This document shows, piece by piece, positions 6,741 to 34,138 of a stretch of DNA of 64,000 nucleotides (the first letter of the stretch is position 1; every line of letters starts with the position of its first letter). The DNA is from Neptunicoccus cionae (GTDB lineage: Bacteria; Pseudomonadota; Alphaproteobacteria; Rhodobacterales; Rhodobacteraceae). The notes below the pieces were generated by a model. That model saw nothing but the letters and a program-made list of their open reading frames with translations, did no database searches and had not been told where the DNA came from. A program made the translations under genes and the position numbers. The stretch is taken from the NCBI RefSeq assembly GCF_002860325.1, contig NZ_PKOJ01000004.1, positions 62,001 through 126,000 on the forward strand, given 5' to 3'.

Positions 6741-7540
6741 AGCTCTCGCCGATGTTTGTTTGCGGTGCCACGCTGGTGGCCGTGTGGAGCCTCATTGCGC
6801 TTGCAGCCCCCCTGCTTGCCACCCATGATCCTTATGCGATCGACTTCGAGGCGCTTCTTGCCCCCCCGAGTGCCGAGCACTGGTTCGGGTCTGACAATGT
6901 GGGACGCGATACCTACAGCCGGGTGATCTACGGTTCGCGTCTTGCGCTTTATATTGGTTTGCTCGGAGTGATTGCACCGATGGTTATCGGCATGACAATC
7001 GGACTGCTGGCGGGATATTTCGGTGGCTGGGTCGACACAATCGCCATGCGTATTCTGGACATAACCGTGCCGTTTCCATTCTTCGTTCTGGTCCTGTCTA
7101 TCGTTGCGGTACTTGGCCCCGGAATTGAAAACTACTTTATCGCTTTGGCGCTGGTGGGTTGGGTCGGCTATGCGCGGCTGGCGCGGGCCGAAGCCATCGT
7201 GCTGCGCAGTTCCGAATTCGTTCTCGCAGCGCGCACTATGGGTTTTTCACATCCCTACATACTGTTTCGCCACGTATTGCCCAATGCCTTGTCACCTGTC
7301 GTGGTCTATATGATGACCGACGTAACGCTGGTTATCCTGTTCGGTGCCGCGCTTGGCTTCTTGGGAATGGGTGTGTCCCCGCCAGCCGCAGAATGGGGCG
7401 TGATGATTGCCGAAGGACAAATCTATATTTCTACCGCCTGGTGGATCAGCTTCTTTCCCGGACTGGCGATGGTTCTGATCGGCGTGGGTTTTGCCCTGAT
7501 GGGCGACGGACTGGCCAAAATGTTAAGGATCGAGCGATGA
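6737..7540 (+). CDS. Peptide-type ABC transporter permease, DppC class
   Basis: The second permease subunit has 267 residues, the usual length for DppC when the N-terminal leader is short. It shows the family signature HWFGSDNVGRDTYSRVIYGSR near residues 50-70 and an EAA-type loop with AARTMGFSHPYILFRHVLPN. The start ATG 6737 overlaps the preceding stop and its own stop overlaps the ATPase start. It pairs with the DppB-class subunit in the inner membrane to form the transport channel. Confidence 0.93.
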   Translation: MKLSPMFVCGATLVAVWSLIALAAPLLATHDPYAIDFEALLAPPSAEHWFGSDNVGRDTYSRVIYGSRLALYIGLLGVIAPMVIGMTIGLLAGYFGGWVDTIAMRILDITVPFPFFVLVLSIVAVLGPGIENYFIALALVGWVGYARLARAEAIVLRSSEFVLAARTMGFSHPYILFRHVLPNALSPVVVYMMTDVTLVILFGAALGFLGMGVSPPAAEWGVMIAEGQIYISTAWWISFFPGLAMVLIGVGFALMGDGLAKMLRIER

Positions 7541-21096: not shown

Positions 21097-21801
21097 TCAG
21101 TCCACCCGAAACACTGTGCCGTTGCCCGCATCGCGAATAAGATCAACGGTGGTTCCATTCCAGTGATAGTCCAGATGCCGCCCCTGCACCGGAGGGTCTG
21201 CCAGATCTGGGAAAAACAATCCGGCGCAATCGCCTTCACCGCGCACGCTCGGGTAGGCGACACCTTCACCGCCCGCTGCCCGCACCGCTGCGCCGAATCT
21301 CTGCGCCGCCTGATAGCTGTCAGGGTTAAGCAGCGCATCTGCCCCCTGCCCGCGCAAGTCGTAAAGTTCGGCGTGTACATCTAAAACCAATTCACGGAAT
21401 TGGGATGTCCAGCCCGCCGGTTGTGCCGTCGCCGCCATGAACCGCGCGTGGTGGTGGATTGTTTCGTAAACCGCCGTTTCAAAATCGCTCGCAACATAAA
21501 GCACACCGCGGCGACCGTCTGAAAACCGGCTGGGACGGTCGGTGCTAGTATGGGTGAAAGGGGCCATCAGATAGCTGGCCCCCTGCCCCCCGACACGACG
21601 GTCGGGCGGGATCAGATCGAGATTGCCGATGGTTTCCATCAGGCGGGGATTGGTTTTCTGTTCTGCAGAGATCAACAGCGGCCAGTCCTCGGGGGCGGCG
21701 ATGTCTTCAAACAGGTCAATCGGGGGATAAACGCTGCGGATGATCCGCACCGCGCCGGTCCAGTCAATCCGGTTCACGGGTACATCCTGCGGCGAAATCA
21801 C
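21097..21801 (-). CDS. RES-domain toxin (NAD-degrading type)
   Basis: RES toxins degrade NAD+ and arrest growth when free of antitoxin. The 234-residue product contains the RES core: SRFSDGRRGVLYVASDFETAVYETI (read in parts) with its characteristic Ser/Arg, Tyr and Glu positions, and a C-terminal LDYHWNGTTVDLI. It starts at GTG 21801, overlapping the antitoxin stop as GTGA. Antitoxin-first order and translational coupling are typical of RES/Xre modules. No truncation is seen, so the toxin is probably active. Confidence 0.88.
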   Translation of the reverse strand: MISPQDVPVNRIDWTGAVRIIRSVYPPIDLFEDIAAPEDWPLLISAEQKTNPRLMETIGNLDLIPPDRRVGGQGASYLMAPFTHTSTDRPSRFSDGRRGVLYVASDFETAVYETIHHHARFMAATAQPAGWTSQFRELVLDVHAELYDLRGQGADALLNPDSYQAAQRFGAAVRAAGGEGVAYPSVRGEGDCAGLFFPDLADPPVQGRHLDYHWNGTTVDLIRDAGNGTVFRVD

Positions 21802-22208
21802 CAGGCGCCGCGCTCTGCATCAAGGTAGCGGCGCACCCGCATCAGGTCTGTCAGCTCCCCCCCCAGCATGACAGAAAGTGCAGATTTTCCGTTGAACGCT
21901 GCATTTCCGGCTTTGATCCAGTCATAGCCCCGCTGCGGTTCGCTGAACAGCAGGCGCAGGACTTTGTGGATGCCAAGAAGGTTGGACAGACGCGCCCGCG
22001 TGTCCCGGTCCAGACGTCCGGGCTGGCCCGCCTTCCAGCGGCGATAAGTTCGCACCGGAAGGTCCAGCAGGGTCGCGGCTTCGTCATCAATCACGCCCCA
22101 TTTTTCAAACAGGGTCAGGGTCGCGCGCAACATCGCTGCGGCCTCGGCATCGGTGATTGGGTCGGGCGCAAAATCCTGCGCTTTGGTTTCCAACGGGTGC
22201 AACGCCAT
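21798..22208 (-). CDS. Xre/MbcA/ParS-type antitoxin (DUF2384)
   Basis: This 136-residue protein pairs with the RES toxin. It has a helix-turn-helix region (DEAATLLDLPVRTYRRWKAGQPG) and the C-terminal toxin-binding domain with LLGIHKVLRLLFSEPQRGYDWIKAGNAAFNGKSAL (read in parts). The antitoxin tail in this family blocks the toxin active site. AAGGAG precedes ATG 22208. A palindromic site directly upstream is the likely autoregulatory operator. Confidence 0.9.
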   Translation of the reverse strand: MALHPLETKAQDFAPDPITDAEAAAMLRATLTLFEKWGVIDDEAATLLDLPVRTYRRWKAGQPGRLDRDTRARLSNLLGIHKVLRLLFSEPQRGYDWIKAGNAAFNGKSALSVMLGGELTDLMRVRRYLDAERGAW

Positions 22209-22269: not shown

Positions 22270-23544
22270 CTAACCCGCCTTCGCCGCCAGCGTTTCTGGC
22301 GGACGATAGGCGTCATAGGCCCGCTGTATCGCGATTTGATCCGCCACATACTTTGCATCATGCCAGACCCCCCAGATAAAGGAAGATCCGCGACGGGATT
22401 GCCACGGCAAGCCGACAAAATAGACGCCCCGCTCGGGTGAGACACCGCGCTGGTGGATCGGTTTGCCATTGTCGTCAAAGGCGTCAATTTTAAGCCAGCC
22501 ATAGTCCACCGAAAATCCGGTGGCCCAGATGATCGACGTAATTCCAGCCTCGGCCAGATCCAGTTCCGTGATCGGGTTGGTCAGGCAGTCCGGATCAGGC
22601 CAGCATTTACGCTCTTGCAGATCTTCGGGCAGGTCGAGCCCGTGGCGCGTCACATAGGCGTCCGCCTCATCCAGAACCGAAGCGTGGTTGGCATCACCCC
22701 GCGCAATATTATCGACGAGATCAGGGGCAAAGTGCAGCTTGCCATTCTCAAACCGTTCTGTGCGCCCGACAAGCTGCATTCCACCCGCGGCGAACCGCCG
22801 GAAATCCACGGTTTTGCCGCCCTTGGCCCCGCTGACAGCGATGGTGACATGTTCGGTTCCCGGGCCCGGGGTCTGCATATCCCATTTGCCCAGCACGCCG
22901 AGCCACCAGACGAAATCCCGCCCCCGATAGCTGCGCGGCGGGCGGTCGTGCGGCCCGACAGACAGGTAAACCTTGCGCCCCGAGTCCATCAGTTCTTCTG
23001 CGATTTGCGCACCGGACGATCCGGCCCCGACCACCATGACAGCTCCTTGCGGCATCTGATTGGGATTGCGGTAATCGTGAGAGTGGATTTGCGTCAGCCC
23101 CGCGCTTTGAGGCACCAGTTGCGGGATCAGCGGTTTCTGAAACGGTCCGGTCGCAGCGACGATCCGTTTGGTTTCAATCTCTCCTGCACTGGTCTGGACC
23201 AGAAAGGCGGAACCGTCAGCCGTGCGGCGTGCACGATGCACTTCGACGCCACAGCGCACAGGGGCGTTGATCTGCTTGGCATAGTCCACAAAATAATCCG
23301 CGACACCTTCTTTGGGCACAAAGGCTTCAGGGTCACAGCCTTCAAAATCGCGGTTCGGGAAGCGGTCGTGCCATGCGGGGCCGTTGGCCACCAGCGAATC
23401 CCACCGCCCTGTACGCCAGCGTTCGGCAATGCGGTCCCGCTCCAGAACAATGTGATCCACCCCCAGAGCACCGAGATGTTCGCTCATCGCGATTCCGGCC
23501 TGACCGGCACCAACAACCAATGTGTCTGTCTTTTCTACGGGCAT
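22270..23544 (-). CDS. Flavin-containing monooxygenase-like NAD(P)/FAD oxidoreductase
   Basis: This 424-residue soluble flavoprotein has an FAD-binding GAGQAG (residues 12-17), a second Rossmann motif VVGAGSSGAQIAEEL in the middle for NADPH, and an ATGF motif (SIIWATGFSVDYGWL) near the C-terminus. This two-dinucleotide layout is that of class B monooxygenases and CzcO-like proteins. ATG 23544 is preceded by AAAGGA; a GTG extension at 23580 is less likely. A TTAG-N7-CTAA site lies 86 bases upstream, suggesting co-control with the amine genes. N- or S-oxygenation of an amine-derived compound is possible but unproven. Confidence 0.85.
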   Translation of the reverse strand: MPVEKTDTLVVGAGQAGIAMSEHLGALGVDHIVLERDRIAERWRTGRWDSLVANGPAWHDRFPNRDFEGCDPEAFVPKEGVADYFVDYAKQINAPVRCGVEVHRARRTADGSAFLVQTSAGEIETKRIVAATGPFQKPLIPQLVPQSAGLTQIHSHDYRNPNQMPQGAVMVVGAGSSGAQIAEELMDSGRKVYLSVGPHDRPPRSYRGRDFVWWLGVLGKWDMQTPGPGTEHVTIAVSGAKGGKTVDFRRFAAGGMQLVGRTERFENGKLHFAPDLVDNIARGDANHASVLDEADAYVTRHGLDLPEDLQERKCWPDPDCLTNPITELDLAEAGITSIIWATGFSVDYGWLKIDAFDDNGKPIHQRGVSPERGVYFVGLPWQSRRGSSFIWGVWHDAKYVADQIAIQRAYDAYRPPETLAAKAG

Positions 23545-23629
23545 TCCGGAATCCTTTGTCCTTTTTGGCAATGAAGGCACCCTAGGGGGCCGGTCGGAAG
23601 CTGAAAAACAGTAAATCTCGCAGCATTGC

Positions 23630-23644
23630 TTAGGCAGAGGCTAA
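23630..23644. promoter_or_regulatory. LysR-type dyad, site A (TTAG-N7-CTAA)
   Basis: TTAGG-CAGAG-GCTAA is a symmetric T-N11-A box. It lies 86 bases before the flavin monooxygenase start. It shares its consensus with three more sites at 23683, 25941 and 28234, all in intergenic DNA around one LysR gene. Confidence 0.6.
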
Positions 23645-23682
23645 ATCGACTCACAACATTGGGTTCAATATGCCGGACCGGA

Positions 23683-23697
23683 TTAGGCAACAGCTAA
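23683..23697. promoter_or_regulatory. LysR-type dyad, site B (TTAG-N7-CTAA)
   Basis: ATTAGG-CAACA-GCTAAT is symmetric over nine further bases including the flanking A/T and G/C. It lies 116 bases before the RidA-family start and 53 bases from site A, so the two may be bound together to drive the divergent genes. Confidence 0.6.
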
Positions 23698-23812
23698 TCG
23701 GGGCTGAGGCACTCCGTACTTTTCGCCGCTGGATATTCACATATTGCTGGGGCCATAGTGCGCAGGGGTACGGGTGAACCCGTCCCCGCCCGTCAGTTGC
23801 AGAGGATCTCTC

Positions 23813-24229
23813 ATGGCCCACACACGTATTCGCAAATTCAACACCTCGGACACCTACCCAGAACAGAAACTCGACAATGATCTGTGTCAGGCTGTGATCA
23901 CTCAGGGCGGCAAAACCGTCTGGCTGCGAGGACAATGCCCGCAAAATCTGGACGATGCCAAAAACATCGACAGTCACGATCCGGTCGAACAGACCCATAA
24001 GGTAATGCAGAACATCCGCCAGCTTATTCAGGAAGCCGGCGGCGAGATGGAGCATCTGGTCAAAGTGGTTGTCTACATCACAGACGTGCGCCACCGCGAG
24101 GCGGTTTACCGCACAATGGGCGAATACATCAAAGGGGTGCATCCGGTGTCGACCGGTCTTGTCGTGCAGGCGCTGGCGCGGCCCGAATGGCTGGTGGAAA
24201 TCGACGGCACAGCGGTGATACCGGAATGA
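23813..24229 (+). CDS. RidA/YjgF family protein without the usual catalytic Arg
   Basis: RidA proteins hydrolyse reactive enamine/imine intermediates made by PLP enzymes and amine oxidoreductases. This 138-residue member has the C-terminal core VVVYITDVRHREAVYRTMGEY (read in parts) and LVEIDGTAVIP. The Arg that ends the active site in E. coli RidA (PARS) is missing: the equivalent stretch at 111-118 is PVSTGLVV. It therefore belongs to a subgroup whose deaminase activity is doubtful. ATG 23813 has GAGGA 7 bases upstream. Its stop overlaps the DUF1028 start. Confidence 0.88.
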   Translation: MAHTRIRKFNTSDTYPEQKLDNDLCQAVITQGGKTVWLRGQCPQNLDDAKNIDSHDPVEQTHKVMQNIRQLIQEAGGEMEHLVKVVVYITDVRHREAVYRTMGEYIKGVHPVSTGLVVQALARPEWLVEIDGTAVIPE

Positions 24230-24900
24230 CCTTTTCGCTTGTTGCCCGCTGTCCTGATACCGGCATGTTCGGTGTTGCCATTTCTTCATCCTCTCCGGCC
24301 GTTGCGGCGCGGTGTTCTTATGCCCGCTCCGGTGTCGGGGCGGTCGCCACACAGAATGTCACCGACCCGAGCCTCGGCCCCCTTACGCTTGATCTGATGG
24401 GGCAAGGGCTTGGCGCGGAAAAGGCAATCGATCAGGTTAAGGCGCGGGGGAAGTTCATCGAATACAGACAAGTGCTCGCCGTGGATTATGAGGGGCGCAC
24501 GGCCATTCATTCCGGCCCGAACTCTCTTGGCATCTGGACACAGGCAATAACCGAAAATGTTGCCTCCGGGGGCAATCTTTTGGCCAATGACACGGTGCCA
24601 CAGGCCATCGTGGACGGCTATCTTGCAGCAACGGGCCATATCGGGGACCGTCTGATCGCGGCGATGCGGGCAGGTCTCGCTGCCGGCGGAGAGGCCGGAC
24701 CAGTTCATTCCGCCGGAATGATGATAGTGGATAAGGTCAGCTGGCCTGTGGCCGATCTGCGCTGCGACTGGACAGAAGATTGCCCGATTGAAAATATCGC
24801 CACCGCTTGGGACATCTATAAACCCCAGTTGGACGCTTACGTGCAGCGGGCACTTGATCCGCGCGAGGCCCCGTCCTACGGGGTGCCGGGTGACGATTAA
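24226..24900 (+). CDS. DUF1028 family protein (Ntn-hydrolase-like)
   Basis: The 224-residue protein opens with TFSLVARCPDTGMFGVAISSSSPAV and continues with GVGAVATQNVTDPSLG, the DUF1028 hallmark. This family has an Ntn-hydrolase-like fold, but its reaction is not established to my knowledge. It starts at ATG 24226 overlapping the RidA-like stop (ATGA), so the two proteins are made together; the pairing of DUF1028 with Rid proteins is common. A hydrolase acting on an amide or cyclic imine product would fit but is inference. Confidence 0.88.
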   Translation: MTFSLVARCPDTGMFGVAISSSSPAVAARCSYARSGVGAVATQNVTDPSLGPLTLDLMGQGLGAEKAIDQVKARGKFIEYRQVLAVDYEGRTAIHSGPNSLGIWTQAITENVASGGNLLANDTVPQAIVDGYLAATGHIGDRLIAAMRAGLAAGGEAGPVHSAGMMIVDKVSWPVADLRCDWTEDCPIENIATAWDIYKPQLDAYVQRALDPREAPSYGVPGDD

Positions 24901-24993
24901 ACCGTTAAAGCGGTGTCTTCCCCTCGCAAAATCCTGCCCTTATAACAGGGGAATACCCGCTGCACGCCGCAGCGTTTGAAGACTGGAAACCCC

Positions 24994-25944
24994 ATGCTGA
25001 GATTCACCCTGCGCCAGCTTGAATACTTCGTCGCCGTTGGTGAAATGGGAAGTATTGCAATGGCTGCCGAGAAGGTGAATGTGTCCTCACCGTCTATCTC
25101 TGCGGCTGTGAACCAGCTTGAAAAAGAGTTCGGCCTGCCCTTGTTTGTGCGCCAGCATGCACAAGGCTTGTCCCTGACGCTGGCTGGGCGCGAGATGATG
25201 AAGCAGGCCAAGCTGGTGCTCGACAATGCCGAAAAGCTGGTAGATCTGGCGGCGGATGTGTCGGGCAATGTGCAAGGCCCGCTTTCCATCGGTGTTCTGC
25301 TGACCTTTGCGCAAATGGTGGTCCCTGCCCTGCGTGCCAGTTTCGAGGCGTTGTTTCCCGATGTGCGCGTCACCCAGCACGAACTGGATCAGGCGCAGAT
25401 TTTCAGCAAGTTACGGCGCGGCGAAATCGACATTGCGCTCACTTACGACCTTGATCTGCCGAGCGATCTTAAATTCCAGCCAATCGCCACCCTGCCCCCT
25501 TATGCAATCCTGAAGCCTGATCATCCGCTGGCGGTGCGCGCCAGTGTCAGCGTCGAAGATCTGCTGCCCTACCCGATGGTCCTGCTGGACCTGCCGTTCA
25601 GTTCGGAATATTTCCTGTCGTTTTTCGGCGCCTCCGGAACCAAGCCGAAAGTGACGGAACGTACAAGGGACATGGCGGTAATGCGGAGCCTCGTAGCCAA
25701 CGGTTTCGGCTTCTCCATCGCCAACGTGCGCCCGCTGAACGATCTGTCACCGGATGGCAAACCCTTGTGTTTTGTTCCGCTCAACGGCGAAGCCCGTCCG
25801 ATGCAACTCGGGCTATTGGCTTCAAAAGATGCGGACAGTGCCAGTGTGATCCGCGCCTTCATACAGCACTGCCTGACCGAATACCGCGACGGTCGCCTGC
25901 CCGGTCTGAACGTCACTTCCAAAGACGCTATGAAAGCAGATTAG
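24994..25944 (+). CDS. LysR-type regulator, likely controller of the amine island
   Basis: This 316-residue regulator starts at ATG 24994 (MLRFTLRQLEYFVAVGEMGS) with the LysR helix-turn-helix including VNVSSPSISAAVNQLEKEFG in the first 50 residues and a periplasmic-binding-like effector domain after residue 90. It lies centrally between four matching T-N11-A dyads. One of them (25941-25955) overlaps its own stop codon and lies before the TMADH-like gene. No other regulator is encoded between 22.3 and 34.1 kb, so it is the best candidate to bind these sites. The effector is unknown, perhaps an amine. Confidence 0.92.
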   Translation: MLRFTLRQLEYFVAVGEMGSIAMAAEKVNVSSPSISAAVNQLEKEFGLPLFVRQHAQGLSLTLAGREMMKQAKLVLDNAEKLVDLAADVSGNVQGPLSIGVLLTFAQMVVPALRASFEALFPDVRVTQHELDQAQIFSKLRRGEIDIALTYDLDLPSDLKFQPIATLPPYAILKPDHPLAVRASVSVEDLLPYPMVLLDLPFSSEYFLSFFGASGTKPKVTERTRDMAVMRSLVANGFGFSIANVRPLNDLSPDGKPLCFVPLNGEARPMQLGLLASKDADSASVIRAFIQHCLTEYRDGRLPGLNVTSKDAMKAD

Positions 25945-25955
25945 GCGCGGCCTAA
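25941..25955. promoter_or_regulatory. LysR-type dyad, site C (TTAG-N7-CTAA)
   Basis: TTAGG-CGCGG-CCTAA begins inside the LysR stop codon (TAG at 25942-25944) and lies 81 bases before the TMADH-like start. Spacing to the target matches sites A (86) and D (85). Confidence 0.6.
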
Positions 25956-26035
25956 GCAGCGGTTTTGCAAGCCAGACTGTTGCCCGCTTCTCGCCAAGGC
26001 TAATCTGCGCGCAATTGCAGCCTAAGGAGGTGCCC

Positions 26036-28105
26036 GTGCGCGATCCCCGTTATGATATTCTGTTTGAGCCGATGGATATCGGCCCCGTAACATCCAAGAA
26101 CCGCTTTTATCAGGTGCCCCATTGTAACGGCGGCGGCTATCGCGATCCGTCGGCAGCGGCAGCGATGCGCGGGATCAAATCCCAAGGCGGCTGGGGCGTG
26201 GTCTTTACCGAACAATGCGAGATGCACCACACATCGGAAATTACCCCCTTTATCGAGTTGCGCCTTTGGGAAGACAAGGACATTCCCCAGTTGCGCAAAA
26301 TGTCGGAAAAGATGAAGGAACACGGCGCGCTTGCGGGCATCCAACTGGCTTATTCCGGTATCAACGGTCCGAACCTTTACAGTAAGGAAGTGCCGCTTGC
26401 GGTGTCGGCCATGCCGATCCGCACCTTTACTAATGATCCGGTACAGGCCCGCGCGCTCGACAAATCAGACATACGCGACCTGCGGCGCTGGTTTGTGAAT
26501 GCGGCGAAACGCTCCAAAGACGCGGGCTTTGATCTGATCTGCCTTTACGGGGCGCACGGCTTTGGCATCTTTCAGCACTTTCTGAGCCGTGCCACCAACC
26601 AGCGCTCTGATGAATACGGCGGCAGCCTTGAAAACCGAGCGCGTTTCGTGAACGAGGTGATCTCGGATATGCGCGATGCGGTGGGCGATACGATGGGGAT
26701 CACCCTGCGGGTCAGTCTGGATGAAACCATCGGGGATCTCGGCTTTTCCAACGCCGAAGTGCGCGACTTTATCGAGATGAACCGTGATCTGCCAGACCTT
26801 TGGGATCTGGCACAAGGCACGTGGGAGGATTGCTCCGGCCCGTCCCGTTTCAAGGAGGAGGCCGCGCAGGAACAACTGGTGCGGGGGATACATGATCTGA
26901 CCGACAAACCGATCGTCGGGGTCGGACGGTTCACATCGCCAGATGTTATGGCCAAGACGATCCGAAGCGGCACACTGGATTTTATCGGCTGCGCTCGCCC
27001 GTCCATTGCCGACCCGTTCCTGCCCAAAAAGATCGAAGAAGGCCGGATTGAGGACATCCGCGAATGTATCGGCTGCAATATCTGCATCACCGGCGACATG
27101 ACCATGTCTATCAGCCGTTGCACACAGAACCCGACCTTTATGGAGGAATGGCGCAAAGGCTGGCATCCCGAACAGATGAACGCCAAAGGGGGCAGCAGTT
27201 CCGTATTGGTCGTAGGCTCTGGTCCCGCAGGACTGGAAGCGACCCGCGCTTTGGCGGAGAGGGGGTATGATGTGGCGCTGGCCGAAGCCAAAACGGTTCT
27301 GGGCGGTCGCGTTGCCCGCGAACGCCAGCTTCCGGGCCTGAGTGCTTGGGGTCGTGTGGTGGATTACCGCGAATACCAGATCAGCCAGAAACCGAATGTG
27401 GAAACCTATTTTGACAGTCCACTGGATGCCGAAGGTATTCTGGAGTTCGGCTTTGAAAACATCTGTGTAGCAACCGGTGCCAAGTGGCGGGAAGACGGTG
27501 TCAGCCGCCAGCATGTTGTACCAATGCCTATCAACGGGGACATGCCGGTCTATACGCCCGATCACATCATGGACGGGAAAATTCCTTCGGGGAAAGTCGT
27601 GATCTATGATGATGATCACTACTACATGGGCGGCGTTCTGGCCGAACTCTTGGTCAACGCGGGTTGTGACGTTACGATTATAACTCCTTCGGCCTATCTG
27701 TCGGACTGGACGGTAAACACGCTGGAACAGCATGCGATCCACAAGAAGCTGGCGGGGATGGGTGTTAACGTCGTACTAAACCGCGGTGTCATCCGGATTG
27801 AAGCGGATCATGTGGTGTCCGACTGCGTCTACACTGGCACTGAGCAAAATTTTGACTGCGGGTCTGTGGTCATGGTGGCCAGCAAGCTGGAAAATAACGA
27901 ACTTTACCACGCCTTGAAAGCACGGGAATCCGAATGGGCAGATGCGGGGATCAAATCGGTTGAACTGATCGGGGATGCCAATGCCCCCGGCCCGATTGCA
28001 TGGGCCACATATGCCGGTCACCGCTATGCACGGGAACTGGACGGAGAGGACATCGGAGATGCCCTTCCGTTCCGCCGGGAGATCACCGAACTGGCTATCG
28101 GCTGA
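26036..28105 (+). CDS. Trimethylamine dehydrogenase-family iron-sulfur flavoprotein (amine dehydrogenase)
   Basis: The 689-residue protein has an N-terminal FMN TIM barrel, a 4Fe-4S site and two Rossmann-type domains, as in trimethylamine, dimethylamine and histamine dehydrogenases. Cys30 (QVPHC) matches the Cys that binds FMN covalently. Cys344, 347, 350 and 362 match the cluster ligands. In the substrate pocket, Gln60 replaces the Tyr of trimethylamine dehydrogenase, as recalled for dimethylamine dehydrogenase, Trp256 is kept, and the Trp355 equivalent is lost. It should oxidise an amine to an imine and pass electrons to ETF. GTG 26036 has AAGGAGG 5 bases upstream. The pot genes downstream suggest a polyamine or related amine. 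Confidence 0.88.
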   Translation: MRDPRYDILFEPMDIGPVTSKNRFYQVPHCNGGGYRDPSAAAAMRGIKSQGGWGVVFTEQCEMHHTSEITPFIELRLWEDKDIPQLRKMSEKMKEHGALAGIQLAYSGINGPNLYSKEVPLAVSAMPIRTFTNDPVQARALDKSDIRDLRRWFVNAAKRSKDAGFDLICLYGAHGFGIFQHFLSRATNQRSDEYGGSLENRARFVNEVISDMRDAVGDTMGITLRVSLDETIGDLGFSNAEVRDFIEMNRDLPDLWDLAQGTWEDCSGPSRFKEEAAQEQLVRGIHDLTDKPIVGVGRFTSPDVMAKTIRSGTLDFIGCARPSIADPFLPKKIEEGRIEDIRECIGCNICITGDMTMSISRCTQNPTFMEEWRKGWHPEQMNAKGGSSSVLVVGSGPAGLEATRALAERGYDVALAEAKTVLGGRVARERQLPGLSAWGRVVDYREYQISQKPNVETYFDSPLDAEGILEFGFENICVATGAKWREDGVSRQHVVPMPINGDMPVYTPDHIMDGKIPSGKVVIYDDDHYYMGGVLAELLVNAGCDVTIITPSAYLSDWTVNTLEQHAIHKKLAGMGVNVVLNRGVIRIEADHVVSDCVYTGTEQNFDCGSVVMVASKLENNELYHALKARESEWADAGIKSVELIGDANAPGPIAWATYAGHRYARELDGEDIGDALPFRREITELAIG

Positions 28106-28233
28106 GAACTCTTACGGCGGGGGGTATTTTACCTCCTGCCGATTTGCCAGCGGCGCGAATCCGGTCCATTTCCGCTTTTCAAAAGTGTTAAAATACAGGC
28201 AGTTGCATGCAATTTCCGCTTATAATTCTCGCA

Positions 28234-28248
28234 TTAGGATTTCCCTAA
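28234..28248. promoter_or_regulatory. LysR-type dyad, site D, at the pot operon promoter
   Basis: ATTAGG-ATTTC-CCTAAT is symmetric (TTAG at 28234-28237, CTAA at 28245-28248). It lies 8 bases after a perfect TATAAT at 28221-28226 and 85 bases before the potA-type start, so it covers the likely transcription start. No good -35 hexamer is seen, consistent with a regulated promoter. Confidence 0.6.
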
Positions 28249-28332
28249 TATCAACTGAGGGAGACAATTCTTACCAAGGTTCGAAGGCTCTCTTACTGTC
28301 CTGTCCAACACCACCGCCACCGGGGAGCGCCT

Positions 28333-29424
28333 GTGTCTTTAGAACAACCCAACGCCATTGAAGTCCGCAACGCTGTAAAGCGGTATGGCGATTTCACCGC
28401 GTTAAAAACCATTTCTCTGTCGATCAAGGACAATGAATTTTTCACACTGCTTGGCCCGTCGGGCTGTGGCAAGACAACTCTGTTGCGGATGATCGCCGGA
28501 TTTGAGGATGTGACCGAAGGGGCAATCTTTCTTTACGGTGAGGAAATCGAAGGCCTGCCGCCCCACAAACGCCCTGTAAATACTGTCTTTCAAAACTACG
28601 CGCTGTTCCCTCATAAAACCGTGCTCGACAATGTGGCATTCGGGCTGCAAATGCGTGGCAATTCCAAAGCGGATGCCCGAAAGCGTGCGGGCGAAATGCT
28701 GGAACTGGTGCAGCTTTCCCAATTTGCAGGACGCAAACCCTCGCAGCTTTCGGGCGGACAGCAACAAAGGGTTGCACTGGCCCGCGCGCTGGCCCCGCAG
28801 CCAAAGGTTCTGCTGCTGGACGAACCTCTCTCTGCGCTCGACCTGAAGCTGCGCAAGGCCATGCAACTGGAACTGAAGCATCTGCAACGGGAAACCGGCA
28901 TTACCTTTATTTTTGTGACTCACGATCAGGAAGAAGCCCTGACCATGTCAGACCGGATTGCTGTCATGTCATCGGGCGAATTGCAGCAATTGGGGGATGC
29001 GCGGGATATCTATGAAAGGCCGTGCAACATGTTCGTGGCCGATTTCATCGGCGAAACCAACCTTCTGGACGTTTCTGTTGACCGGATAGAAAGCGGGCAG
29101 GCCATCTGTCATCTGGGCGGAGGGCACGCTCTGACCTGCCCGTCTGTTGAAGAGGTCTCCGCCGGTTCCAAAGTGCATCTGTCCGTCCGACCGGAGCGAT
29201 TGTTCCTGACAGCAACACCGGATGCCGGGAATGCACTGAAAGCTAGCGTACGCGAAAACATTTTTGTCGGCACGGACATCACGACGCTGGTCGATCTGGC
29301 AGGCGGCCCCGAAATCATCATCCGCACTTCAAATTCCGAACGGGGAAACCAGCGCATTTTTGATCCGGGTACACCGGTTTATGTGAACATGGAGCATGGG
29401 GCCGCTCGGCTTCTGGTGGACTGA
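28333..29424 (+). CDS. potA: Polyamine-type ABC transporter ATPase
   Basis: The 363-residue ATPase has Walker A GPSGCGKTT near residue 42, signature LSGGQQQRVALARAL near 140, Walker B LLLDEPLSALD and a C-terminal TOBE-like domain with LSVRPERLFL. Length and order match PotA/PotG ATPases of spermidine/putrescine importers. GTG 28333 follows GGGGAG at 28322-28327. It heads a four-gene operon with potB, potC and potD types. Its stop overlaps the first permease start by one base. Confidence 0.9.
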   Translation: MSLEQPNAIEVRNAVKRYGDFTALKTISLSIKDNEFFTLLGPSGCGKTTLLRMIAGFEDVTEGAIFLYGEEIEGLPPHKRPVNTVFQNYALFPHKTVLDNVAFGLQMRGNSKADARKRAGEMLELVQLSQFAGRKPSQLSGGQQQRVALARALAPQPKVLLLDEPLSALDLKLRKAMQLELKHLQRETGITFIFVTHDQEEALTMSDRIAVMSSGELQQLGDARDIYERPCNMFVADFIGETNLLDVSVDRIESGQAICHLGGGHALTCPSVEEVSAGSKVHLSVRPERLFLTATPDAGNALKASVRENIFVGTDITTLVDLAGGPEIIIRTSNSERGNQRIFDPGTPVYVNMEHGAARLLVD

Positions 29425-30353
29425 TGGCAGGCGGAGCAACTTCGGGCGGCAACGCCGTCACAGACACATACAAAGAGGCCCGCAACTGGCTGTTGCTGCC
29501 TGCCTGGGTCACGCTTGGCATTCTGGTGCTGGCACCGGTCCTGTTGATGCTGGTCTATTCCTTTCTGACGAAAGAATTCAGGGGCGGTGTGATCTGGGAA
29601 TTTTCCCTTGCGGCCTATGACCAGTTTTTCTTTGACCGCGGCCTGTTCGGGGATGATCCCGCAAAAATCGAATGGACCTATATTGCGATCTTCTGGCGCT
29701 CGATCTGGCAGGCCGGTGCGGCAACTATTCTCAGCCTCGTCATTGGTTTTCCAACTGCTTATTTCATTGCGACCCGTCCCGAAAAACAACGGGTGATCTG
29801 GGTCTTTCTTATTACGATCCCGTATTGGGTGAACCTGCTGATCCGCACGGTATCCATGCGCTTCCTGTTGCGCGACGAAGGGCCGTTGAATTCCTTTCTG
29901 ATGACGACAGGTCTGGTGGATGCCCCTATTCATATGATCAACACCAATTTCGCGGTTCAGGTCGGGCTGTTCTATTCCTACCTGCCGTTCATGGTGCTGC
30001 CGATCTATGCCGCAGTGGAACGCTATAACTTTACGCTGAGCGAAGCAGCCGCAGACCTATATGCCAACAAGTGGATCACCCTGCGTCACATCCTTCTGCC
30101 CGCCGTAAAACCCGGGGTAGTGGCAGGGTGTATCCTTGTATTTGTGCCCTCGCTTGGATCGTTTCTGGCGCCCGACCTGCTGGGCGGCGCGAAAAACTTC
30201 ATGATCGGATCCCTGATCGAAGAGCAGTTCAAAGGCAACGCGGGGAACTGGCCCTTTGGCGCGGCGGCATCGATGATCCTACTGACGATGGTGCTGATCA
30301 TTCTGGTAATCTACGCACGGGCGCAGGCCCGCAGCGACAAAGAGGCGGGCTGA
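29424..30353 (+). CDS. potB: Polyamine-type ABC transporter permease 1
   Basis: This 309-residue permease begins at ATG 29424, sharing one base with the ATPase stop. It has about six helices and the EAA loop ADLYANKWITLRHILLPAVKPGV typical of PotB. The N-terminus is somewhat long, with a first helix from about residue 24 (LLPAWVTLGILVLAPVLLM). It pairs with the next permease in the inner membrane. Confidence 0.9.
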   Translation: MAGGATSGGNAVTDTYKEARNWLLLPAWVTLGILVLAPVLLMLVYSFLTKEFRGGVIWEFSLAAYDQFFFDRGLFGDDPAKIEWTYIAIFWRSIWQAGAATILSLVIGFPTAYFIATRPEKQRVIWVFLITIPYWVNLLIRTVSMRFLLRDEGPLNSFLMTTGLVDAPIHMINTNFAVQVGLFYSYLPFMVLPIYAAVERYNFTLSEAAADLYANKWITLRHILLPAVKPGVVAGCILVFVPSLGSFLAPDLLGGAKNFMIGSLIEEQFKGNAGNWPFGAAASMILLTMVLIILVIYARAQARSDKEAG

Positions 30354-30356
30354 TCC

Positions 30357-31166
30357 ATGACCCATAAAAGGTATGATATTAAATCCTACCCCGGCTTTTT
30401 GCAGATCACACTGCTGTGCCTTTTCGTACTCTACGCACCCTTAATTGTAGTGGCGATATACAGTCTAAACGCTTCGGCTTCGATTGCGGTCTGGGAAGGG
30501 TTTTCGTTCCGCTGGTACGTTGATGTCTTTACAGGGCCCGAAAGCGCAAAGTTCAAAACCGCCGCGCGAAACAGTTTTGTTATTGCGATCATTGCGGCAA
30601 CGCTTGCAACAGCCATCGCAACGCTTGCCGCGACAGCGATGGTGCGTGGCGGGAAATTCCGGCTGCGGGCGTGGTCTTTCGGGCTGATTTCCCTGCCCCT
30701 TATGGTGCCCGAAATTGTCACCGCCGTAGCCACATTGATCTTCTTTAATTCCATCGGCTTCGATCGGGGATTGCTGACGATCCTGCTGGCCCATATCGCA
30801 TTTTGCATTCCCTTCGCCTATTTGCCGATTTCCGCACGGATGCAGGGGATCGAGGACAGTTATGAACAGGCCGCGCAAGACCTTTACGCCACGAAACGGC
30901 AGGCCTTTACCAAGATCCTGCTGCCCTTGATGCTGCCGGGTATTATTTCCGGTTTTCTACTGGCTTTTATCATTTCCCTTGATGATTTCATCATCACCAA
31001 CTTCGTCAAAGGGGCCGGAGTGGAAACCCTGCCCACCGCGATTTTCGGGGCGGTCAAGCAGGGCATCAAACCGAATATCATGGCCATTTCAACCATGCTT
31101 CTGGGCTTTTCCGTCCTGATGGTTCTGATTTCCTACCTCGTAAGCCGAACAGACAAAACTTCCTAA
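30357..31166 (+). CDS. potC: Polyamine-type ABC transporter permease 2
   Basis: The 269-residue second permease shows the PotC pattern, with [14 protein letters not shown] after the first helix, an EAA loop [23 protein letters not shown] and the motif [13 protein letters not shown]. Only three bases separate it from potB. It completes the membrane channel of the importer. Length is normal and no fault is visible. Confidence 0.92.
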
Positions 31167-31191: not shown

Positions 31192-32226
31192 ATGAAAAAA
31201 CTACTTACAACCACCGCCGCTGCCACGGCGCTTTTGATGGGCGCTACAGGCGCGCAGGCAGAGGGCAAACTGGCCATCTATCACTGGTTTGAATACATTC
31301 CACAGGATTTGCTCGACAAGTTCAGCAAGGAACACGACGTGGAAGTCATCATGGACACTTACGACTCCAACGAGGCCATGCTTGCCACGCTGAAAGCGGG
31401 CGCCATTGGCACATATGACGTCGCGGTTCCAACCGATTACATGGTCTCTATCCTGATCGGAGAAGGGCTGGCAGATGAAATCGCGTCCGGTGAACTCTCA
31501 AACATTGGCAACGTTAAGGCTGCCTTTACCGATCCCGCTTATGACCCCGGCTTGAAACACTCCATCCCTTATCAGGGCGGCACAACCAGCTTTTCCGTAG
31601 ATACGGCAGAATACACCGGGGATATTGATTCCACCGACATCATCTTCAATCCCCCCGAGGAACTGCACGGCAAAATCAACGTTCTGGACAGTCAGGGCGA
31701 GGTTCTGGCACTGGCGGCGGTCCATATGGGTATTCCCCAGTGTTCGACCGATCGCGATCAGCTCAAGGCGCTGAACGACATGCTGCAAGCAGCCAAACCC
31801 CATTGGGCCTCTTTCAACTCTGATACAGCGAAAGAGGTTCTTGCCGCCGGTGATGTTGTGGCTGGCATGATCTTCAACGGCTACGCCGCCAAAGCCCGCG
31901 AGACCCGCGAAACGTTGAAATACGCCTACCCGAAACAGGGCTGGGTGAACTGGATGGACAGTGTTGTCCTGCTGAAAGATGCGCCTAACCGCGAAAATGC
32001 GCTAAAGTTCATGGACTTCCTGCTTGAGCCGGAAAACATCGCGCAGGTTACAAACTTTGCCCGCTATACCGATGTGGTCGAAGGCACTGCAGAGTTCATT
32101 GATCCGGAACTGGCATCCATGCACGAAAGCAACCCGCCAGCCGGTATTGAAGGTGTTTTTGTAGAGGCCTGCGACGCGGAAACTCAGGCGGTTTACGATA
32201 AGATCTGGACCAACCTGAAGAAGTAA
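31192..32226 (+). CDS. potD: Polyamine-type ABC transporter substrate-binding protein
   Basis: This 344-residue periplasmic protein has a Sec signal (cleavage near AQA/EGK) and the PotD/PotF fold: LAIYHWFEYIPQDLLDKFSKEHDVEVI (read in parts), DSNEAMLATLKAG and DVAVPTDYMV. Acidic residues in such pockets bind the amine groups of putrescine or spermidine, but the ligand cannot be read from sequence alone. Two Cys (in PQCSTD and EACDAE) may form a disulfide. A clear terminator follows, so higher-order downstream genes may be made from read-through or a second promoter. Confidence 0.92.
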   Translation: MKKLLTTTAAATALLMGATGAQAEGKLAIYHWFEYIPQDLLDKFSKEHDVEVIMDTYDSNEAMLATLKAGAIGTYDVAVPTDYMVSILIGEGLADEIASGELSNIGNVKAAFTDPAYDPGLKHSIPYQGGTTSFSVDTAEYTGDIDSTDIIFNPPEELHGKINVLDSQGEVLALAAVHMGIPQCSTDRDQLKALNDMLQAAKPHWASFNSDTAKEVLAAGDVVAGMIFNGYAAKARETRETLKYAYPKQGWVNWMDSVVLLKDAPNRENALKFMDFLLEPENIAQVTNFARYTDVVEGTAEFIDPELASMHESNPPAGIEGVFVEACDAETQAVYDKIWTNLKK

Positions 32227-32236
32227 ATCACAGTTG

Positions 32237-32273
32237 AAGCGCGGGTTGTCACAGTCATGGCCCGCGCTTTTTT
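32237..32273 (+). terminator. Intrinsic terminator after the pot operon
   Basis: A 9-base stem AAGCGCGGG / CCCGCGCTT (32237-32245 with 32261-32269) is followed by six Ts (32268-32273). It lies between potD and the acetylpolyamine amidohydrolase gene, so pot and the hydrolases are at least partly separate transcripts. Confidence 0.85.
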
Positions 32274-32292
32274 CATTTGCGAAGGACAAGCA

Positions 32293-33330
32293 ATGGAAAC
32301 CATATTCACGGAAAAACACAGGTTGCGGGACGCCAAAACAGAATTGTTTGGCGGCGAACTTGTGCAACCCCACGAACGGCCGAGCCGCGCTGAATATGTG
32401 ATCAACCGGGTTCGGGACGTTGCACTCGGACCGGTCAGCGATCCGCAGGATTTCGGGCTGGACCCGATCCTTGCCATCCACAAACCGGATTTTGTCGAAT
32501 TTCTGCAAACCGCATGGAACCGCTGGTCCGAGGCAGGTTTCAAAGGGGAGGCGATGCCCACAACATGGGTCGGGCGCCGGATGTCGGACAAGCGGCCCAA
32601 TTTCATTGAAGGTCAGATCGGCTATTACGCACTGGCAGGCGAAACCAGCCTGACGGACGGCACATGGGAGGCAGCCTATGCCAGTGCGCAAGTCGCGCTG
32701 ACGGGGGCTGACCGGATCAACAAGGGCGCGGGAAGTGTCTTTTCGCTCTGCCGTCCACCGGGGCATCACGCAACTGCGGACATGTATGGCGGCTATTGTT
32801 TTTTGAACAATGCTGCGATTGCGGCCCAGTACTATCTGGATACAGGCGCCAAGCGGGTCGCAATACTGGATGTGGATTTCCACCACGGCAACGGAACACA
32901 GGATATCTTTTACACACGCGATGACGTGCTTTTTGTATCGTTGCACGGTGATCCACTGGAAACCTTCCCTTATCATCTCGGCCACGCTGACGAGACCGGA
33001 GAAGGCAAAGGTGACGGTTATAACGTTAACTATCCGATGCCTCCCGCCACCCCCTTCGAGATATGGCAATCTGCGCTATCAAAAGGGTTGGACCGGATCG
33101 CAGACTATGGGCCCGATGTTCTGATTGATTCGCTTGGCGTGGACACGTTTGAGAATGATCCGATCAGCTTCTTCAAGCTTAAAAGCGGGGATTTCACCAC
33201 GATGGGCGCAGACATTGCCCGTGCAGGATTGCCAACCCATTTTATTATGGAAGGCGGTTATGATGTGGAAGAAATCGGTGTGAACGCAGTAAACGTGTTG
33301 CAGGGTTTCATTTCAGAGCAAGGAAAATAG
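32293..33330 (+). CDS. aphA: Acetylpolyamine amidohydrolase (histone deacetylase fold)
   Basis: This 345-residue zinc enzyme removes acetyl groups from acetylated polyamines. Every expected active-site residue is present, at the same numbers recalled for the Mycoplana ramosa enzyme: His158-His159 (PPGHHA), zinc ligands Asp195, His197 (LDVDFHHGNGTQ) and Asp284 (GVDTFENDP), and Tyr323 (EGGYD). The extended N-terminal region before residue 40 also matches that family rather than plain HDACs. ATG 32293 has GAAGGA upstream; an in-frame extension would run through the potD terminator. Context with pot genes supports polyamine catabolism. Confidence 0.92.
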   Translation: METIFTEKHRLRDAKTELFGGELVQPHERPSRAEYVINRVRDVALGPVSDPQDFGLDPILAIHKPDFVEFLQTAWNRWSEAGFKGEAMPTTWVGRRMSDKRPNFIEGQIGYYALAGETSLTDGTWEAAYASAQVALTGADRINKGAGSVFSLCRPPGHHATADMYGGYCFLNNAAIAAQYYLDTGAKRVAILDVDFHHGNGTQDIFYTRDDVLFVSLHGDPLETFPYHLGHADETGEGKGDGYNVNYPMPPATPFEIWQSALSKGLDRIADYGPDVLIDSLGVDTFENDPISFFKLKSGDFTTMGADIARAGLPTHFIMEGGYDVEEIGVNAVNVLQGFISEQGK

Positions 33331-33334
33331 GGTC

Positions 33335-34138
33335 ATGCGCATCGGGGTCTGGCAAGATGAAACACCATCAGGCGGCGTGGGTGCCGCACGGAAAATTATT
33401 GCAGCAGCCCTTGGAGAGGCAAAAGCAGACGGCGTGGATATCCTTGTTTTTCCCGAGTGCTTCCTGACCGGATACTACCGCGACGCCGCAGAAGTCTCCC
33501 CTTGCGCGGCGGCCGTCACCCCCGATGAAATAACCGCCCTGCAAGCCTTATGCGATGACACCGGCATTGCATTCGTGCTGGGCAGCTACCTTCCGACCGC
33601 CGCTGGTACCGAAAACGTGGCACTGGTCTTCCGGCCCGCCACCCGAGAGCCGCTGATTTATCGCAAGCGCGCCCTGTTCGGAGAATGGGAGAAAACGGTC
33701 TTTCAAGCCGGTTCCGCTCCCCTGCTGTTTGATTATAAAGACACCCGTTTCGCCGTTCTTATCTGTTTTGATGTTGAATTCCCCGAACTGGTCCGCGAAG
33801 CCGCCCAAGCGGGGGCGCAGGCGGTTTTGGTGCCAACCGCGCTCATGGCGCCGGAGCATTGGGTGCCAGACATCATTGTCCCTGCCCGCGCGATCGAGAA
33901 CAAACTGACAGTGGCCTATGCCAACCGGATCGGGGACGAGGGGCATTTTACCTATATCGGGAAAAGCCAGATATCGGGCACGGACGTAAAGAACCGCGTG
34001 GTCCACAGCACGACGGCATCCGGACTGATCAGCGCCGAATTGGCGTCTGACCCGAAGGCCATGGATTACATCCGCGAAATAAACTCCCAAGGCCTGCCCC
34101 GTGTAGGGGGCGCAACCGAAGATCTACAGCCAAGCTAA
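33335..34138 (+). CDS. Carbon-nitrogen hydrolase (nitrilase superfamily)
   Basis: The 267-residue enzyme has the complete nitrilase triad: Glu41 (VFPECF), Lys111 (IYRKRALF) and Cys144 (VLICFDVEFPE). Such enzymes hydrolyse amides or carbamoyl groups. In a polyamine setting a carbamoylputrescine- or omega-amide-type substrate is plausible, but the protein is shorter than typical N-carbamoylputrescine amidases. The start is only 5 bases after the amidohydrolase stop. Its 3' end overlaps the convergent VTT-domain gene by 15 bases. Confidence 0.9.
   Translation: MRIGVWQDETPSGGVGAARKIIAAALGEAKADGVDILVFPECFLTGYYRDAAEVSPCAAAVTPDEITALQALCDDTGIAFVLGSYLPTAAGTENVALVFRPATREPLIYRKRALFGEWEKTVFQAGSAPLLFDYKDTRFAVLICFDVEFPELVREAAQAGAQAVLVPTALMAPEHWVPDIIVPARAIENKLTVAYANRIGDEGHFTYIGKSQISGTDVKNRVVHSTTASGLISAELASDPKAMDYIREINSQGLPRVGGATEDLQPS

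Follow-up and report, generated by a model that had tools for sequence, protein, structure and literature searches.

A dyad repeated at four promoters marks a probable LysR-controlled amine regulon in Neptunicoccus cionae and related Rhodobacterales

A stretch of 64,000 nucleotides from the genome of Neptunicoccus cionae (contig NZ_PKOJ01000004.1, positions 62,001 to 126,000; hereafter the window) carries four exact copies of the dyad TTAG-N7-CTAA, namely TTAGGCAGAGGCTAA at position 23630, TTAGGCAACAGCTAA at 23683, TTAGGCGCGGCCTAA at 25941 and TTAGGATTTCCCTAA at 28234. These precede, in that order, genes for a flavin-dependent oxidoreductase (called a flavin monooxygenase in an earlier note on this DNA, and abbreviated here as FMO), a Rid-family protein, a histamine dehydrogenase orthologue (HADH) and PotA, the ATPase of a polyamine-type ABC transporter. 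In all likelihood the LysR-type regulator encoded in their midst (Table 1) uses all four as recognition sites and would control, as an activator, an amine uptake and oxidation regulon of at least five transcripts. By binding these sites the regulator would very probably switch on four neighbouring gene sets and one distant gene.

Both the four positions and the form TTAGG-N5-(C/G)CTAA that the earlier note had assigned to all of them proved exact on the sequence, and no further copy of the dyad is present in the window. The same note had allowed for about one chance match per window, which was too cautious an estimate: dinucleotide shuffles yield an expectation of 0.08, and four copies were reached in none of 100 shuffles. 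Occurrence at many unrelated sites of the genome, set beforehand as the outcome that would count against a regulon, was not observed, as the 4.29 Mb genome holds nine copies in total, of which four are those of the window; furthermore, the TTAGG-N5-(C/G)CTAA form is present at all four window sites and at 0/5 of the remaining ones. The dyads have the T-N11-A geometry expected of sites for LysR proteins and are located upstream of their putative targets, while the presumed regulator combines an N-terminal HTH_1 domain with a C-terminal LysR substrate-binding domain. The gaps from site to start codon are 85 (FMO), 115 (Rid), 80 (HADH) and 84 (PotA) bases, in agreement with the 86, 116, 81 and 85 given previously provided that the ATG at 23544, rather than the GTG at 23580, is taken as the FMO start codon; the ATG was adopted because the predicted -10 element lies at 23584-23579.

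In a first look at the family, in which 11 candidates were scored per genome, relatives of the LysR protein at E <= 1e-60 were found in 51 of 198 genomes. The best 80 named loci among the matches listed in the genome collection (mostly Rhodobacterales by title) were combined with 40 stretches around LysR relatives and, after removal of 12 with identical LysR DNA, 108 loci (2.03 Mb) were retained, among which two near-duplicate pairs are left (L081/L082 and L127/L132); the nearest relative locus among the matches listed is that of Neptunicoccus sediminis, with 97% LysR identity. Across these 108 loci TTAG-N7-CTAA occurs 156 times, while nine other spacings between N3 and N12 yield 0-4 matches each, and not one dyad lies wholly inside the 702 kb of mapped genes. 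Within 350 bases upstream, a dyad was detected for PotA in 38/44 cases, HADH in 36/59, FMO in 56/87 and Rid in 18/94, the low count for Rid arising because this gene usually follows FMO on the same strand; the corresponding counts for DUF1028 (0/93), PotB (0/44), PotC (0/44), PotD (0/45) and LysR itself (1/106) are negligible. At least one dyad before FMO, Rid, HADH or PotA is present in 77 of the loci. With distances counted up to where the protein match begins, the dyad lies 76-94 bases before HADH in 35/36 sites, 80-119 before Rid in 18/19 and 85-129 before PotA in 35/41, with a broader range (40-358 bases) for FMO. Conservation upstream of orthologues, on which the earlier note had made its proposal depend, is thus observed before the operon heads PotA, HADH and FMO. 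Among permuted half-sites, TGAT-N7-ATCA gave 115 matches and the other ten permutations 1-30. Conservation of the surrounding coding sequence was considered as a cause of the dyads and rejected: the TGAT-N7-ATCA copies sit in open reading frames or at fixed places before PotD and DUF1028, where we read them as coding sequence of the preceding gene, whereas no TTAG dyad is contained entirely in a mapped gene of the 108 loci.

The dyad opens a larger module and is followed at fixed distances by a second box and a -35 element. In a dyad-anchored alignment of 140 site-gene pairs, G20 is conserved in 103, T22 in 121, A28 in 117, T37 in 119 and T38 in 115, and these counts understate the conservation since some sites, lying between divergent genes, were counted twice, once in the wrong direction. 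The same downstream bases are shared by four unrelated promoters (FMO, Rid, HADH and PotA); at the window sites T22, A28 and T37 are present in all four, and G20 and T38 in three each. A TAnnnT sequence is found at +60 in three of the window sites and TATTGC at +59 before Rid, while in the relatives the best -10 match is at +59 in 24/35 HADH sites and at +60 in 20/35 PotA sites. A transcription start near +72, as deduced from the -10 element, would put the centre of the dyad at around -65, with the second box adjacent to the -35, an arrangement that corresponds to the layout of LysR activators, with a recognition site around -65 and an activation site next to the -35. A generic promoter scan missed these window promoters, whose -35 is weak. 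The module is also seen on plasmids: on a closed Parasedimentitalea plasmid the gene set is contained in one annotated stretch, with composite scores (maximum 21) of 21 for HADH, 21 for pot, 19 for an HpaB-like oxygenase and 19 for FMO, HADH and pot having exact dyads, and on a Haematobacter plasmid (53% LysR identity) an exact dyad with a score of 20 precedes an FAD oxidoreductase. Seven remote dyads in relatives (L263-L269) were examined as possible members and were not supported, with 0-4 of the five second-box positions.

As the 108 loci had been selected by LysR, FMO orthologues were searched independently of it and the surrounding DNA was fetched, one FMO entry being dropped owing to incomplete upstream sequence; the 17 genomes with FMO but without LysR were screened a second time for the regulator, by means of a profile and covering every candidate. 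An exact dyad within 350 bases before FMO was present in 31/50 genomes with LysR and in 1/17 without (Fisher 4.6e-5), and a composite score of at least 17 in 48/50 and 1/17, respectively. Together with the conservation before orthologues, this comparison supports the shared LysR regulon suggested by the earlier note. With the wrong spacers of 5, 6, 8 and 9, such scores were reached in 0, 7, 2 and 1 of the 50 genomes with LysR and in none of the 17 without. For PotA, an exact dyad was found in 15/15 cases with LysR and 0/1 without, a weak result (p = 0.06). At the level of whole genomes, TTAGG-N5-CCTAA is present in 24/51 genomes with LysR and 22/147 other family genomes (Fisher 1e-5), a partial separation only. 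Additionally, 14 stretches were inspected in which FMO, HADH or Rid genes of LysR-containing genomes lie on other contigs or far from LysR, and an exact upstream dyad was detected in seven of them (L241, L242, L243, L245, L246, L249 and L256).

Several observations weigh against this reading or limit the support for it. The p value of the composite FMO comparison (2e-12) is optimistic because the score was learned partly from the sites tested. The FMO tree favours dependence on LysR: LysR changes 11 times on it and the module 13 times, and among five independent pairs on supported branches an average of 4.9 have the module going with LysR and 0.0 have it going the other way; five pairs are, however, a number with which a sign test cannot reach 0.05. 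Weaker LysR relatives occur in three of the genomes counted as lacking it (G113 at 6e-68, G052 and G191 at about 1e-42). Individual genomes also deviate, as the fragmented G155 (370 contigs) has the dyad with no LysR found, G150 retains LysR with no module before FMO, and G137 has none before FMO and a dyad before the Rieske gene just upstream of it. For HADH the association is not significant (11/23 with LysR, 0/6 without, p = 0.058), 12 of the 23 cases with LysR being devoid of an exact dyad, and for Rid there is none (6/45 and 1/13), mostly because Rid follows FMO. No dominant -10 was found for FMO (+82 in 11/52, +60 in 7, +59 in 6) or for Rid (3/18 at most), such that the activator layout has a consistent -10 for HADH and PotA and a scattered one for FMO and Rid. 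The remaining seven distant stretches (L240, L244, L247, L250, L251, L252 and L254) have no exact upstream dyad, although composite scores of 17-18 are attained upstream of FMO in L240, L244 and L247. L250-L252 contain a more distant HADH-like gene (66%) with a carbon-nitrogen hydrolase gene, and pot genes in L251 and L252, and probably represent a separately controlled paralogous operon; in L254, from the LysR-containing genome G014, an exact TTAG-N7-CTAA at 7381 lies inside a PotC-like gene, probably by chance. Finally, the opened stretches of Pantoea (48% LysR identity) and Acetobacter (40%) are without the dyad motif, and the operator is therefore not universal for this LysR group.

The predicted fifth target emerged from a search of the genome with the composite 39-mer, which at up to two mismatches gave 65 matches, the top four being the window sites (0, 0, 0 and 1 mismatches). 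Only two further matches have one mismatch, and one of these is located 82 bases upstream of an unlinked Rieske oxygenase gene. Its product has 65-77% identity to a cluster (c2) found in 26 of the 108 loci from relatives, in many of them flanked by FMO and Rid, and in Neptunicoccus sediminis an exact dyad occupies the equivalent place before the Rieske gene. As the motif alone would be expected to yield three or four one-mismatch matches (estimated from the two-mismatch count), the weight of this target rests on position and conservation; the other one-mismatch match (L281) lies among unrelated-looking genes.

The regulon would therefore comprise five transcripts: FMO; Rid-DUF1028-LysR; HADH; potABCD with the HDAC-family and carbon-nitrogen hydrolase genes; and the unlinked Rieske oxygenase. 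Each promoter is proposed to have TTAG-N7-CTAA centred about 65 bases before the predicted transcription start. Some 18 bases further downstream comes a second box (GcTgaGgcA), which merges into a weak -35 (CTT), and a -10-like TAnnnT is situated roughly 60 bases after the beginning of the dyad. A LysR tetramer anchored on the dyad would reach the second box and, on binding an inducer (probably an amine or its oxidation product), would shift at this box and recruit RNA polymerase. Positive autoregulation of the circuit is probable, since the LysR gene is likely to be transcribed together with Rid and DUF1028, which precede it. The sites, their conservation, the layout of the promoters and the association with LysR are computed results; it is from these that we infer direct binding, activation, the operon structure, autoregulation, the inducer and the pathway.

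As regards the enzymes, the gene described in the earlier note as similar to trimethylamine dehydrogenase (TMADH) has to be renamed: its product scores 1248 bits over 686 residues with the histamine dehydrogenase of Rhizobium sp. (6de6), compared to 537 bits with TMADH. The part of PMC10180351 used here, which treats the enzyme and its assays, lists pocket and tunnel residues, of which 17/18 are identical at that numbering, the sole difference being A for L at 567; CIGCNIC is present at 344. This protein is a histamine dehydrogenase orthologue, and oxidation of histamine is predicted for it. Similarly, the name ridA given previously does not apply, as the protein is a Rid-family member in which PVS aligns with the PAR of the solved relatives 3r0p and 3k0t, and which thus lacks the catalytic arginine of RidA. 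According to the portion of PMC4433059 that was available, the Rid4-Rid7 subfamilies are likewise devoid of this arginine and apparently do not hydrolyse imines, and Rid genes cluster with those of FAD-dependent amine oxidases. PotA scores above the curated cut-off for polyamine transporter ATPases, its substrate specificity being a prediction from homology. Recurrent neighbours in the relatives are genes for an ArgE-like deacetylase in 65 of the 108 loci and for a PuuC-like aldehyde dehydrogenase in 34; Rieske oxygenases of two groups recur in 26 and 17 loci, a diaminobutyrate-decarboxylase-like protein in 7 and a class III-type aminotransferase in 6.

Other explanations of the dyads were considered. 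That AT-rich dyads clustered by chance has a virtually nil probability, given the expectation of 0.08 in the window and the conservation and spacing controls, and nothing was found in its favour. It is distinctly improbable that the dyads are operators of another transcription factor and the LysR gene a mere neighbour. Binding of LysR to the dyads is a deduction, the 108 loci were chosen for LysR, such that its presence there proves nothing, and in 15 of them another gene resembling a regulator is present (c4, judged by eye to be of LuxR type); however, the FMO comparison, which did not depend on that choice, still splits by LysR presence, the T-N11-A geometry is that expected of LysR proteins, and c4 is the only other regulator recognised among the nine clusters found in at least six loci. 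It is also improbable that LysR binds but mainly represses, or that the sites serve local autoregulation and the motif elsewhere stems from promoter duplication. LysR proteins can repress, and the 25941 dyad shares bases with the LysR stop codon and might influence read-through from LysR to HADH; set against this are the position of the dyad around -65 and the immediate proximity of the second box to a weak -35, an activator layout that is the same at four promoters, the presence of the module at unlinked genes, and the occurrence of a dyad directly upstream of LysR in just 1/106 cases.

Greater weight must be given to the alternative that the regulon is real and its substrate neither histamine nor a polyamine, the FMO/Rid/DUF1028/ArgE core degrading another nitrogen compound with HADH as an accessory, for which the probability is substantial without being predominant. 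Plasmid stretches of Pantoea and Acetobacter, in which genes annotated as FAD oxidoreductase, Rid, DUF1028 and ArgE accompany a related LysR in the absence of histamine dehydrogenase, are consistent with this view, as are the Rieske or HpaB-like oxygenases of some relatives and the finding of HADH at 72% identity or more in only 59/108 loci (some contigs being short). Conversely, primary amines are suggested by the 17/18 conserved HADH residues, the pot transporter and the genes of HDAC-like and PuuC-like proteins. The term amine regulon used in the earlier note is accordingly likely on grounds of homology (HADH, the polyamine-type ABC transporter and the PuuC-like proteins of relatives), although the amine as substrate is only deduced. 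Judged from the gene content, we take the system to be a regulon for amine catabolism whose core is conserved, histamine dehydrogenase being a probable addition in Rhodobacterales. An HpaB-like oxygenase gene lies between FMO and Rid in L087 and L096, and the Rieske proteins of some relatives are distantly similar to carnitine and glycine-betaine oxygenases. A bolder proposal, tentative and rather doubtful, is that the composite operator marks an undescribed Rhodobacterales-wide catabolic regulon, in which FMO, an exchangeable oxygenase (Rieske or HpaB-like), the arginine-less Rid, DUF1028 and an ArgE-like deacylase might together constitute a novel pathway that breaks down a nitrogen compound, for example histamine, through oxidation to the imidazole acid, oxygenation and opening of the ring, and deacylation. 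If true, this would be the first pathway for DUF1028 and this Rid subgroup.

The features of the locus are collected in Table 1.

Table 1. Genes and promoter elements of the proposed regulon in the window.
Feature	Position	Strand	Remarks
FMO, flavin-dependent oxidoreductase, MSMEG_0569-like	22270..23544	-	Pfam Pyr_redox_3; mechanical open reading frame to 23580
FMO promoter, predicted -10, TAGGGT at +60	23579..23584	-	counted on sequence, inferred
FMO promoter, second box and -35	23606..23624	-	G20, T22, A28, T37, T38; 5/5 conserved positions
FMO promoter, LysR dyad	23630..23644	-	composite match, 0 mismatches
Rid-DUF1028-LysR promoter, dyad	23683..23697	+	composite match, 0 mismatches
Rid promoter, second box and -35	23703..23721	+	5/5 conserved positions
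Rid promoter, predicted -10, TATTGC at +59, weak	23742..23747	+	counted on sequence, inferred
Rid-family protein	23813..24229	+	Pfam Ribonuc_L-PSP; without RidA catalytic Arg
DUF1028 protein	24226..24900	+	Pfam PF06267
LysR-type regulator	24994..25944	+	HTH_1 PF00126, 67 bits; LysR_substrate PF03466, 121 bits
HADH promoter, LysR dyad	25941..25955	+	composite match, 1 mismatch
HADH promoter, second box and -35	25961..25979	+	G20, T22, A28, T37; position 38 is G
HADH promoter, predicted -10, TAATCT at +60	26001..26006	+	counted on sequence, inferred
Histamine dehydrogenase orthologue (HADH)	26036..28105	+	GTG start; 6de6, 1248 bits
potABCD promoter, LysR dyad	28234..28248	+	composite match, 0 mismatches
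pot promoter, second box and -35	28254..28272	+	T22, A28, T37, T38; position 20 is A
pot promoter, predicted -10, TACTGT at +60	28294..28299	+	counted on sequence, inferred
PotA, polyamine-type ABC transporter ATPase	28333..29424	+	NCBIfam TIGR01187, 382 bits, above cut-off 355.6
PotB-like permease	29424..30353	+	NCBIfam, under curated cut-offs
PotC-like permease	30357..31166	+	NCBIfam, under curated cut-offs
PotD-like substrate-binding protein	31192..32226	+	NCBIfam match, under curated cut-offs
HDAC-family (acetylpolyamine amidohydrolase-like) protein	32257..33330	+	Pfam PF00850
Carbon-nitrogen hydrolase (nitrilase superfamily)	33335..34138	+	Pfam PF00795

The FMO protein scores 379.5 bits with the NCBIfam model TIGR04046 (MSMEG_0569 flavin oxidoreductase), under the curated cut-off of 498.35. 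The stop codon TAG of LysR is embedded in the TTAG of the HADH operator, such that the coding end overlaps the operator, and downstream of the pot genes, in the same orientation, come the HDAC-family and carbon-nitrogen hydrolase genes. Directly downstream of FMO (21097-22208, minus strand) lie a RES-domain gene and an Xre/MbcA/ParS antitoxin-type gene, resembling a toxin-antitoxin pair, and a RES/Xre pair is also found near LysR on the Haematobacter plasmid. The oxygenase adjacent to FMO in the relatives is exchanged in a non-homologous manner, being HpaB-like in two loci (L087:7157-8689 and L096:5730-7262) and a Rieske protein in another (L104:7369-8511). Relatives of the LysR protein are encoded on 103 Klebsiella and 13 Pantoea plasmid records, with 47-48% identity among the matches listed, and the Pantoea region that was opened carries genes for FAD oxidoreductase, Rid, DUF1028, ArgE and a polyamine-type transporter.

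With this analysis an observation of four sites has become a regulon open to testing, for which the operator is written out, a regulator is proposed and five target transcripts are predicted, and the operator may be used for finding further members in other genomes. The analysis also connects DUF1028, the arginine-less Rid subgroup and this FMO group with the uptake of amines and their oxidation of the histamine-dehydrogenase type in Rhodobacterales, an order with many marine members. TTAG-N7-CTAA, in five spellings, was not found in the open-access papers searched, nor did these papers yield anything on DUF1028, on histamine dehydrogenase combined with RidA or LysR or on an imidazoleacetic pathway in this connection, or a title on this regulon.

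Among known systems, the Irr/ICE boxes of alphaproteobacteria (TTAGAA-N3-TTCTAA) also fit TTAG-N7-CTAA and differ from the present operator by their inner bases, by iron-type genes and by 0-1 of the five second-box positions. Two of the five genome sites outside the window are of this form, adjoining a ferritin-like gene (G000:C1:31651, L270:2652) and a Nfu/NifU gene (G000:C10:369194, L271:2195), and are presumably iron-responsive Irr boxes; the form was seen in 10/11 genomes among the matches listed. The HADH of the window shares both its overall score and 17 of the 18 listed residues with the Rhizobium sp. enzyme, and the Rid protein belongs to its family without the catalytic arginine, as in the Rid4-Rid7 subfamilies of the available portion of PMC4433059. 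The potFGHI genes of Ruegeria pomeroyi, described as a polyamine transporter in the part of PMC10130141 that could be used, likewise represent polyamine ABC uptake in a Roseobacter, with no tie in that part to this LysR protein or dyad. The best-scoring solved relatives of the regulator, PDB 3fzv and 6m5f (each a 'probable transcriptional regulator', 177 bits), which we take to be Pseudomonas aeruginosa proteins, are nevertheless distant. Mechanistically the system is probably an ordinary one, a LysR activator regulon that is unusually well supported for a computed one: it shares with such regulons the HTH_1 and LysR_substrate protein, the T-N11-A dyad and a second box by the -35 at several promoters, and, whereas the general model of these regulons has one divergent pair, it has several separate targets and one that is unlinked.

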